Below, piece by piece: positions 23,129 through 60,037 of a stretch of DNA of 64,000 bases. The DNA lies in NCBI RefSeq assembly GCF_000685275.1, contig NZ_ARYK01000007.1:62001-126000 (forward strand). The letters run 5' to 3'. Position 1 is the first letter of the stretch, and each line of letters opens with the position of its first letter. The position numbers and the translations under genes are program-made. Under the pieces are notes generated by a model. It was given only the letters and a program-made list of their open reading frames with translations. It did not search any database and was not told the DNA's origin. This stretch comes from Hyphomonas johnsonii MHS-2 (GTDB lineage Bacteria; Pseudomonadota; Alphaproteobacteria; Caulobacterales; Hyphomonadaceae).

Positions 23129-24199
23129 TCACGGCAATTCTGCCGCGTCCATGCTGGCGATCCATTCGCGCACCAGCGCCACGCCGTCCTCGTCGACGAC
23201 GGTGCGGCCGAGTTCCGGCATGGCCACGCCCGGCTCGGTCGACGCCATCCGGTAGACCATGATCGACTGGTCCGGCGCGCCGGGCGCGATGACGTAAAGG
23301 CTGTCGCCCGCCCCGCGTCCGGCTGCCGTCGGGTGCTTGCCGACACCGATATGCACCGGCGACGTTTCACCTGAATCGAGCCACAGGCCGGAATTCGACG
23401 CCGACCCGGTCGCCTTGTGGCAATGACCGCAATTGATGTCGAGATAGGCCCTGGCCCGGTCTGCGACCGGCAGGCGGACGTCATGGATGGCCGGGGCGAC
23501 GGGCGGATGACCGGGCAAGCCGTCCAGCATGCCGCGCGCGCGCCAGTCCACCAGCTGGTTCACACCGGCCGGGCCGTCATGGTTCAGGTTGCGTGCCTTG
23601 GGCCCGATCGGCAGCACCGCCTCGCCGTCCTGGTGGCAGGTCTTGCACTGGTTCTTGTTGGGGATGGCATAGTCGATCACAAGCGACGCGCCGGCCGCGG
23701 TGGTGACAGAGACCTTCCGTGTCCCACCGGTCGGCGCATAGGTCGCCACGGTGCCCGCCGCGTTCCAGGCGTAGGGAAAGGCCGCCCAGCCGTCTTCCTT
23801 CCGGATAAGGACACGCGTCTCCACCTTGTACTGGCCCACCTCGGGCGTGCGCAGGTCTGGCGCGAACGCAAACGTCTTGATCAGGGCCGTACCGACGGGA
23901 AAGTCCATCGCGGCCGTATCGGAATAGGCAGCCGTCCGGCCTTGAGGCACGAAAACGAACCGGTGCTTGAGGGCATGGTCTGAAAACAGCGGATTGATCA
24001 GGTCATAGGCAACCACGCCGTCCGCCGGCTTTTCGGCTGCGGCATCCTTGAAGAATCCGTAGTCTGCAAGGGTCGGCGCGGGCGTCTCCGCAAGCACGAC
24101 CGACAGGTCGGGGCCTGGGCTGCGCGCCGCTTCGCCGCCCCTGGCTCCGCAGGCCGCGAGCAGGACGAGCGCTGCCGCAAGACACGCAAACTGCTTCAT
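23129..24199 (-). CDS. Diheme c-type cytochrome lipoprotein (HNE_0200/SO_2930-like)
   Basis: The 356-residue protein has lipobox LLAAC (Cys17) and two c-type heme motifs, CKTCH at 185-189 and CGHCH at 257-261. Methionines in PGVAMPELGR (327) and YRMAS (318) are possible axial ligands. The N-terminal half (LADYGFFKDA, YDLINPLFSDHALKHRFVFVP, FPVGTALIKTFAF) matches the family usually found beside a beta-helix lipoprotein. It starts at ATG 24199, overlapping the upstream gene by four bases. It should sit lipid-anchored facing the periplasm or cell surface and accept electrons; partner and function are unknown. The family link is from memory. Confidence 0.8.
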   Translation of the reverse strand: MKQFACLAAALVLLAACGARGGEAARSPGPDLSVVLAETPAPTLADYGFFKDAAAEKPADGVVAYDLINPLFSDHALKHRFVFVPQGRTAAYSDTAAMDFPVGTALIKTFAFAPDLRTPEVGQYKVETRVLIRKEDGWAAFPYAWNAAGTVATYAPTGGTRKVSVTTAAGASLVIDYAIPNKNQCKTCHQDGEAVLPIGPKARNLNHDGPAGVNQLVDWRARGMLDGLPGHPPVAPAIHDVRLPVADRARAYLDINCGHCHKATGSASNSGLWLDSGETSPVHIGVGKHPTAAGRGAGDSLYVIAPGAPDQSIMVYRMASTEPGVAMPELGRTVVDEDGVALVREWIASMDAAELP

Positions 24200-25449
24200 T
24201 CGGCTCCGGCATCCTGTGGCAGCTTGACCGCGCCAGGCTCGGCCACTGCCAGGCCGCGCGGCCGATCCGTGCTGGGCGCAAGCGTCGCCGGATCCAGCGG
24301 GTAGGCGCCGACACCGAGATTGAGGAAGCCGACAGCCGGGTCTTCGTCGACAACGATGTTCACCCGTGCCGCTTCGGCGCCCGGCCATTTCGTGACGCCA
24401 TCGGTGACGATCGCGGGCAACGTTCCGCCTAACGCCTGCGCGACCGCCGTCAGGTCTCCCTGCGGGTCTTCGCCGCCACCGGTCCAGCGATTGTTGCGCA
24501 CCACGATATCGCGCGGCAACGGGTTGTAGCGCGCGTCCGTGAAGGGCTCGCCATAGGCCGTCAGCAGCACATGCGCCGTGCGATTGTCGGCGAAATCATT
24601 GTCGAACACATGCACGTTCCTGTTGGCGAGGACGATGACACCCGTACCCGACGGCACACCAGCCACGATATTGCCCACCGGCGCGAAGTTCCGCGTGTTG
24701 TTGTGGACGATCTGGTTGTTGAAGATGCGTGTCGAATGCCCGCCGACCATTGGCAGGTCCGGCAGGTCGAACACCAGGATGCCGCCGGCATTGTCGCGCG
24801 CCACGTTGCCATAGACGTCGGCATTGGTGGAATTCTCGATCTCGATCCCGGCGACATTGTATTCGGCAATCGAGTTGCGCACGATGATATTGTGCGACTG
24901 GCCGACATAGATGCCGGCGTCGGATGCGCCGCGAACGGTCACGTTCTCGATCAGCACGTCTTCCGATTCGACCGGGTAGACGCCATAGGCGCCGTTCTCC
25001 TCGTCCGGTTCGCCCGGCCAGTCGACCGTCAGGTCGCGATAGGTGATCCGGTCGGACCCTTTTGACTTGATCCCGTCACCCCTGGTGTCACGAATGGCGA
25101 ACGCCATCAGTGTGACATCGTCAGCGGTCACCAGCAGGCCTTCGCCCGCACCGGTCTGGCCGGAAAAGTCGAGGATTGTCTTGTCCTGCCCGGCGCCGAG
25201 GACGGTGACGCCGTCAACATCCAGCGACAGGCCGGTATCCAGCATGAAAATGCCTTCCGGCAGGCGGATCGTGTCACCCGGCTTCGCCTCGATCAGCGCA
25301 AGCTGGAGGGTCGATCCGAAATCGCCTTCCGCCGACAGCACGCCCGGCAGCCCGGGCGTCGCGTCGCCGGGTATGGCGGCGTCCTTCGGCCCACAGGCGG
25401 CGAGCGCAAGCGCTGCGCATCCCACTGCCAATCTGACTTGGAACTTCAT
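24196..25449 (-). CDS. Parallel beta-helix repeat lipoprotein
   Basis: The 417-residue protein has a lipoprotein signal (ALALAAC, Cys19) and right-handed parallel beta-helix repeats from about 45 to 330: TILDFSGQTGAGEGLLV, DGIKSKGSDRITYRDLTVDW, DVLIENVTVRGASDAGIYVG, HNIIVRNSIAEYNVAGIEIE, TNADVYGNVARDNAGGILV, NVHVFDNDFADNR and DIVVRNNRW. Such helices bind or cleave polysaccharides, but no lyase catalytic set is evident. It is the first gene of a pair with the diheme lipoprotein and follows a 44-bp palindrome. Families of this kind commonly occur as this two-gene unit or as fusions. Confidence 0.85.
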   Translation of the reverse strand: MKFQVRLAVGCAALALAACGPKDAAIPGDATPGLPGVLSAEGDFGSTLQLALIEAKPGDTIRLPEGIFMLDTGLSLDVDGVTVLGAGQDKTILDFSGQTGAGEGLLVTADDVTLMAFAIRDTRGDGIKSKGSDRITYRDLTVDWPGEPDEENGAYGVYPVESEDVLIENVTVRGASDAGIYVGQSHNIIVRNSIAEYNVAGIEIENSTNADVYGNVARDNAGGILVFDLPDLPMVGGHSTRIFNNQIVHNNTRNFAPVGNIVAGVPSGTGVIVLANRNVHVFDNDFADNRTAHVLLTAYGEPFTDARYNPLPRDIVVRNNRWTGGGEDPQGDLTAVAQALGGTLPAIVTDGVTKWPGAEAARVNIVVDEDPAVGFLNLGVGAYPLDPATLAPSTDRPRGLAVAEPGAVKLPQDAGAE

Positions 25450-25459
25450 GCCTGCGTCC

Positions 25460-25503
25460 TCCCCGGATCAATGTTGACGTGAGTGTCAACTTCAATCCGG
25501 GGA
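25460..25503. promoter_or_regulatory. 44-bp palindrome upstream of the beta-helix gene
   Basis: A near-perfect inverted repeat is centred between 25481 and 25482. The core GTTGAC-gtgagt-GTCAAC (25473-25490) is perfect; the outer arms CCGGAT/ATCCGG (25463-25468 and 25495-25500) match, extending to 25460/25503, with three mismatched pairs between. It ends 10 bases upstream of the beta-helix ATG, so it can act as an operator or as a hairpin in the leader. The TTGAC arms resemble MerR/TetR-type operators, but I cannot place a clear -10. Confidence 0.6.
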
Positions 25504-25530
25504 AAAGCAAGAGGGCGGCGTTTGCCGCCC
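25503..25530 (-). terminator. Terminator of the DUF1150 gene
   Basis: On the minus strand GGGCGGC-AAAC-GCCGCCC (25513-25530) is followed by TCTTGCTTTT. The stem lies five bases past the DUF1150 stop and separates that gene from the beta-helix pair. Confidence 0.65.
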
Positions 25531-26055: not shown

Positions 26056-26133
<78 letters not shown>

Positions 26134-26181: not shown

Positions 26182-26724
26182 CTAATCTTCATCATCGTCG
26201 AGCACGAGCGGATCGTCGTCGTCGTCATCGTCATCATCGAGATCGAACGCGTCATCATCGTCCGGAAGAACGACATCGTCTTCGTCGTCATCGTCGTCAT
26301 CAACGCCTTCTTCGGTAAAGCCGGCGGGAACCTTGGTTCCTGTCGCTTCTTCCTCGTCATCGTCGACAGCGCCTTCCAGGATGACTTCGGCTGCGTCGCC
26401 GCCCAGTTCCTTGGCGTCTTCCTCGTCGTCGATTTCGTCTTCGTCATCGTCGTCGATGTCGTCGTCATCGTCGCCCTTGCCTTTGCCCTTGCCTTTGGCA
26501 GCGACCTCGTCGTCTTCATCGTCGTCATCATCGTCATCGTCGGACTTGACGGCGGCACGGGCAGCCTTGGCTTTCACCTTGGTGATCGTGGTCTTGATGA
26601 CTTCGTCTTCGGGGTCGAACTCGTTGCCGCACTTGGGGCAGACAGCCGGGCGTTTGTGGAGGTCGTAGAAGCGGGCTTCGCAGTCTGGGCAGACTTGCTT
26701 GGTTCCGAGTTTGTCTTTCGACAC
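26182..26724 (-). CDS. TIGR02300 / FYDLN-acid family protein
   Basis: The 180-residue protein starts with the family motif SKDKLGTKQVCPDCEARFYDLHKRPAVCPKCGNEFDPE, a four-cysteine zinc-ribbon (CPDC and CPKC) with FYDL. The rest (about 60-180) is an extreme acidic tail, with uninterrupted Asp runs up to nine residues broken by a KGKGKGKG patch. I use GTG at 26724 with GGAGG upstream. It is divergent from aroA, the usual alphaproteobacterial arrangement. The function is unknown; the tail suggests a protein or nucleic-acid-mimicking interaction. Confidence 0.88.
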   Translation of the reverse strand: MSKDKLGTKQVCPDCEARFYDLHKRPAVCPKCGNEFDPEDEVIKTTITKVKAKAARAAVKSDDDDDDDDEDDEVAAKGKGKGKGDDDDDIDDDDEDEIDDEEDAKELGGDAAEVILEGAVDDDEEEATGTKVPAGFTEEGVDDDDDDEDDVVLPDDDDAFDLDDDDDDDDDPLVLDDDED

Positions 26725-26837
26725 GGGGCGGCTCCCTCCGGGTTTCAATGATTTTGGTCTGGGCGGGCGCTTGCCATGAACGCCGCGCGCTGTCAAAGCC
26801 CGAATTCACGCTGAAAACACCCAAACGGAATTTGCTC

Positions 26838-31940: not shown

Positions 31941-31974
31941 AGAGGGGCAGCCTTGTTGGCTGCCCCTCTTTTTT
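31941..31974 (+). terminator. Rho-independent terminator after mscL
   Basis: A perfect 12-bp stem, AGAGGGGCAGCC (31941-31952) with GGCTGCCCCTCT (31958-31969), has a TTGTT loop and a run of six T (31969-31974). The T-run overlaps the stop codon of the convergent HAD gene. Confidence 0.93.
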
Positions 31975-59981: not shown

Positions 59982-60009
59982 GCTGTTCCAACCTCACCCC
60001 AAAAGGAAA

Positions 60010-60037
60010 GGGCGGCCCCACGGGCCGCCCTTTTTTT
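60010..60037 (+). terminator. Rho-independent terminator between two TonB receptors
   Basis: GGGCGGCCC (60010-60018) pairs with GGGCCGCCC (60022-60030) around CAC, then seven T (60031-60037). It ends the plus-strand receptor transcript; on the minus strand the opposite side is A-rich, not T-rich. Confidence 0.93.

Follow-up and report, generated by a model that had tools for sequence, protein, structure and literature searches.

The fold shared by cytochromes P460 and cytochromes c'-beta is described in a 2025 review as unique to those two families (PMC11928373). The lysine that cross-links to the heme is Lys106 in NsP460, and c'-beta proteins carry Phe or Met at the corresponding position (PMC11928373, including Table 2 therein); a search through the text of the review turned up no diheme, fused or Shewanella member. 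Among beta-helix proteins, the alginate epimerases are marked by the motif YGFDPHE, in general form YG(F/I)DPH(D/E), with Tyr149, Asp152, His154 and Asp178 as catalytic residues. Hydroxylamine oxidation by P460 requires a distal carboxylate, and the diheme proteins MauG and MbnH oxidatively modify side chains of their partner proteins. For the families TIGR03805 and TIGR03806, and for their members HNE_0200 and SO_2930/SO_2931, the papers searched hold outer-membrane cytochrome lists only, with neither a function nor a link to P460. Our analysis of one such locus suggests that what is new is the link of the diheme family to P460, the pair itself having already been catalogued without a function.

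A lipoprotein gene pair in Hyphomonas johnsonii and other bacteria

We studied a locus in a 64,000-nucleotide stretch of the Hyphomonas johnsonii MHS-2 genome, referred to here as the window (Table 1). The initial annotation had described two lipoprotein genes overlapping by four bases, and both reading frames and the ATGA overlap were recovered, together with both LAAC lipoboxes, the heme motifs CKTCH and CGHCH and the methionine candidate in MPELGR. The families named in the initial annotation also proved right in HMM searches of both products, each of which scored far above its curated cut-off: the beta-helix product matched TIGR03805 over model positions 1-314 of 314 (426.2 bits, E 6.5e-128; cut-off 141.5 bits), and the diheme product matched TIGR03806, now named "SO2930 family diheme c-type cytochrome" at NCBI, over positions 2-314 of 314 (374.8 bits, E 3.2e-112; cut-off 313.3 bits). 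The window locus is thus an ordinary member pair of TIGR03805/TIGR03806, with gene order, overlap and pairing as in the families. A protein with long aspartate runs is encoded at window positions 26182-26796, beside a tRNA-Ala(GGC) gene at 26058-26133.

Table 1. Features of the locus, in window coordinates
Feature	Coordinates	Strand	Basis
Beta-helix lipoprotein gene (TIGR03805)	24196..25449	-	ORF, 417 aa, lipobox LAAC with Cys19
Diheme c-type lipoprotein gene (TIGR03806 / SO2930 family)	23129..24199	-	ORF, 356 aa, lipobox LAAC with Cys17
ATGA stop/start overlap of the two genes	24196..24199	-	sequence
P460-like domain, mature residues 16-206	23534..24106	-	VIA-align and HHalign
Arg64 (mature), 28 residues before Lys92	23960..23962	-	alignment, invariance
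Lys92 (mature; precursor K108), aligned to the P460 cross-linking Lys	23876..23878	-	profile alignments
Glu111 (mature), strand 4, candidate distal carboxylate	23819..23821	-	invariance
First heme motif CKTCH, mature 169-173, end of P460-like domain	23633..23647	-	sequence
Second heme motif CGHCH, mature 241-245, C-terminal cytochrome c domain	23417..23431	-	sequence
Met311 (mature) in MPELGR, likely axial ligand of second heme	23219..23221	-	invariance
44-bp palindrome/stem-loop	25460..25503	.	19-nt arms, 84% complementarity, 6-nt spacer
Promoter-like pair TTGC (25510-25507) and GACACT (25487-25482)	25482..25510	-	first bases 23 nt apart
Shine-Dalgarno-like GGGGAGGA, partly within 3' arm of stem-loop	25457..25464	-	sequence
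Terminator-like hairpin after upstream DUF1150 gene	25513..25530	-	1 found vs shuffle mean 0.9

That the pair is conserved beyond close relatives was confirmed by a synteny survey of 80 loci carrying the diheme gene, drawn from Alpha- and Gammaproteobacteria, Bacteroidota and Neomarinimicrobiota. The beta-helix gene lies upstream on the same strand in 75 of the 80 and is directly adjacent in 74; the five loci that lack it are from Bacteroidota. About 30 of 75 other loci have the 4-base overlap, taking the nearest start. TIGR03806 and TIGR03805 were each found in 29 of 299 Pseudomonadota genomes and both in 27 (Fisher p 8.5e-34, computed on unweighted, partly related genomes and ignoring kinship), and every genome that scored above the TIGR03806 cut-off had both genes. 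SAR86 genomes also keep the pair, and 42 of 61 sampled relatives' genomes scored above the TIGR03806 cut-off. Fusions, which had likewise been expected, exist: in several proteobacterial genomes one continuous reading frame (885-1026 aa) encodes both the beta-helix and the diheme part, and all four fused proteins that we scanned matched both family models. The two proteins are almost always found together, and their co-occurrence, the arrangement in 75/80 loci and the fusions mark them as one unit.

A census of neighbours at about 60 loci revealed no universal third gene and no pointer to a substrate, the scattered neighbours being TetR, SDR, MacB-type ABC, FadL, TonB and MarR genes. About 10 loci (including L054, L055, L047, L062 and L077) have a TetR-family regulator gene in divergent orientation upstream of the pair. 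Closely downstream of the diheme gene in two gammaproteobacterial loci (L070 and L073) are three genes that fit a HlyD/MacB-type ABC exporter, an assignment made from pooled counts and not protein by protein. A FadL-like transporter gene precedes a fused beta-helix/diheme gene by 31 nt in locus L169 (4793-8848), where a NorR homologue is convergent. In one genome (L162, 7597-12770) a second diheme copy stands apart from a fused one, and an integrase-type transposase gene lies between the two. Finally, the TIGR03805-type beta-helix at L176 (5948-9437) carries a heme motif at its C-terminus and has as neighbours a diheme gene of the MbnH/MauG family and a PdsA-like cytochrome.

The upstream palindrome and promoter-like elements

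The 44-bp palindrome that had been reported 10 bases upstream was found 10 bp before the ATG of the beta-helix gene. Its core, GTTGAC-N6-GTCAAC, has a single occurrence in the window and none in 100 shuffles, and folding of the single strand gave z = -6.7. The length alone is not extreme, as other inverted repeats in the window score equal or higher; perfect 12-nt inverted repeats at 31941-31969 and 60007-60033 outscore it in a simple scan. Many relatives have bulged stems, and for this reason we scored recurrence by RNA folding and not by an ungapped palindrome count. A stem is present at the same upstream place in most Hyphomonas (z -2.8 to -6.7 in 11 of 13 tested regions), and its arms vary by lineage, reading CCCCGG...CCGGGG or CCCTCCCCTTGG...CCAAGGGGAGGG. 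Because a stem with differing arms stands at this position in most of the genus, we regard the palindrome as more than a chance occurrence. Rfam gave no match to it, and its core has only one exact site in its own genome, with no sign of a regulon.

Wherever an upstream region contains both TTGC and GA(C/A)A(C/T)T, the two are spaced by exactly 23 nt; this holds also for two Henriciella genomes that have no palindrome stem. We read the TTGC/GACACT pair as a putative promoter enclosed by the palindrome. Transcripts starting there would lack the 5' arm, and in read-through transcripts from the DUF1150 gene the stem would form and partly mask the ribosome-binding site. Alternatively, the palindrome could serve as a repressor operator.

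The N-terminal heme domain of the diheme protein

The AlphaFold2 model of the diheme protein, built with 50 homologues, was of high confidence (pLDDT 91.3, pTM 0.89). When it was compared with the PDB by VIA-align, all of the top 16 rows were P460 or c'-beta proteins, at Z scores that are moderate (5.7-7.6, over 115-135 residues), and the next unrelated row had a Z of 3.5. The superfamily matches span model residues 12-215, and the best single row is a c'-beta protein. Foldseek gave weak matches, with P460 and c'-beta chains among its top rows and, taken alone, none with E < 0.001. The matched domain consists of five strands and an extra hairpin and ends after the first heme motif; the C-terminal half of the protein is a cytochrome c of ordinary type, in which one Met is invariant.

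Profile comparisons pointed in the same direction. HHalign of the TIGR03806 family profile against 15 P460 proteins gave an E of 2.7e-6, with Lys placed on Lys and CxxCH on CxxCH, and taking the heme motif out of both profiles left a score of 32.8, where the highest of 50 column-shuffled controls scored 22.1. Nine of 12 family members showed sub-threshold matches to PF16694, the best at 26.3 bits; the Pfam gathering cut-off is 27 bits, which no member reaches, and we therefore file the diheme protein as a same-fold relative and not as a Pfam P460 member. The window protein itself had no PF16694 match and no Pfam match at 0.001. Since a PDB sequence search with the TIGR03806 family profile did not return a P460 match either, the link rests on fold and on profile-profile comparison. 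We conclude that the N-terminal half of the model has the cytochrome P460/c'-beta fold, at moderate Z scores, and that it is probably a ligand-binding or catalytic heme domain and not a plain electron carrier.

All 125 distinct members of the family that were compared, distant fused forms included, share K92, R64, E111, H173, H245 and M311, and no other Met or His that could serve as sixth ligand of heme 1 is invariant among them, which suggests an open distal site. The cross-linking lysine of NsP460 was located through the K106L mutant sequence in the PDB, in the stretch DGTVIVKEL, which aligns here with VGTALIKTF and so with Lys92. Lys92 thus appears to occupy the cross-link position of P460, and a covalent heme-lysine link might be expected from it. 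The spacing of 28 between Arg64 and Lys92 equals that between Arg50 and Lys78 in McP460. Glu111 is a candidate for the distal carboxylate, although the profile alignment does not put it on the position of Glu96 of NeP460 or Asp102 of McP460. Compared with cytochrome P460 (PF16694; NeP460, McP460 and NsP460), the diheme protein is alike in fold, domain-terminal CxxCH, lysine at the cross-link position and arginine spacing, and unlike in being lipid-anchored, in its fused second cytochrome c domain, in its beta-helix partner and in scoring below the Pfam cut-off.

These features bear on two other readings of the diheme protein. The pair could be a pure electron-transfer conduit in which the two hemes do no more than pass electrons along at the outer membrane, as has been assumed for SO_2930/SO_2931 of Shewanella. 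The listing among outer-membrane c-type cytochromes of S. oneidensis, the lipoprotein signal and the cytochrome c domain agree with such a role, but the P460 fold, the lack of a conserved sixth ligand at heme 1, the invariant Lys, Arg and Glu and the retention of the pair in SAR86 do not, and we consider it unlikely. Surface electron transfer by the pair, as initially suggested, is possible. The lipid-anchored heme protein and its glycan-type beta-helix partner stand, the latter through the structural matches described below, whereas the initial annotation missed that the N-terminal half is P460-like and probably not a plain electron carrier. Binding or scavenging of NO or CO in the manner of cytochrome c'-beta seems still less probable: the fold superfamily is the same, c'-beta gives the top VIA-align row and a NorR homologue is convergent to one fused gene, but the lysine is invariant here, unlike the Phe or Met of c'-beta, and a fused electron relay would be unnecessary for gas binding.

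The beta-helix partner and a proposed mechanism

The AlphaFold2 model of the beta-helix protein (pLDDT 93.5) was most similar in the PDB to the A-modules of the mannuronan C5-epimerases AlgE6 and AlgE4 (Z 33.8 over 302 residues), followed by the RbmB lyase. NosD, also a beta-helix, matched with a Z of 27.7; unlike NosD, the beta-helix protein has no invariant His, Cys or Met for copper among 75 sequences, and it scored 43.4 bits against the NosD model TIGR04247, below the cut-off of 300, with a weak match to NosD in Pfam. Invariant in the 75 sequences is a block around NGAYGVYPVE, SDAGIYVGQS and NVAGIEIEN. Its Y-G-x-x-P-x-E stretch resembles the AlgE motif, and when YGVYPVE was aligned by eye with YGFDPHE, invariant Tyr and Val fell on the positions of Asp152 and His154. 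The beta-helix thus appears to be an alginate C5-epimerase fold without the catalytic Asp and His. We suggest that so strongly conserved a block would fit a role in docking, and the natural fusions point likewise.

The aromatic residues W144, Y155, Y158 and Y181 of the beta-helix are invariant too, as might be expected if the diheme protein oxidatively modified side chains of its partner in the way of MauG and MbnH. The beta-helix relative next to an MbnH/MauG-type diheme gene at L176 would fit such a relationship, but the aromatics may be structural and the diheme protein has no MauG/MbnH match, TIGR03806 being the only NCBIfam model matched at E <= 0.001; we hold this to be improbable. The oxidative polysaccharide-handling unit proposed in the initial annotation, in which the beta-helix would bind or cleave a glycan for oxidation by the hemes, draws on the epimerases and polysaccharide lyases as top structural matches (Z up to 33.8) and is the most doubtful reading, as the epimerase Asp and His are apparently missing and the neighbour census found no recurring polysaccharide genes.

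As the best explanation of the computed fold, heme motifs, conservation, pairing and fusion, we favour, at a probability of about one half, a P460-type redox enzyme that is anchored to the membrane, contains its own electron relay and docks on the beta-helix. The operon would supply two lipid-anchored envelope proteins that act as one unit in a complex. The P460-like domain would hold a c-type heme whose open distal site is probably lined by, or cross-linked to, Lys92, and a small substrate would be oxidised at this heme. Electrons would then pass via the second heme, in the His/Met cytochrome c domain, to a periplasmic acceptor. The beta-helix partner, its epimerase chemistry apparently lost, would act as a docking or substrate-binding subunit.

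With more reserve, we suggest that TIGR03806 might represent an as yet unrecognised third branch of the P460 superfamily, membrane-anchored, with a covalently modified heme, a relay of its own and a degenerate epimerase-fold partner, in marine and soil heterotrophs outside the nitrifiers and methanotrophs. The link to P460 gives a pair found in several phyla, SAR86 included, a first testable mechanism. If it is true, a rare lysine-linked heme cofactor would range well past the nitrogen-cycle specialists.
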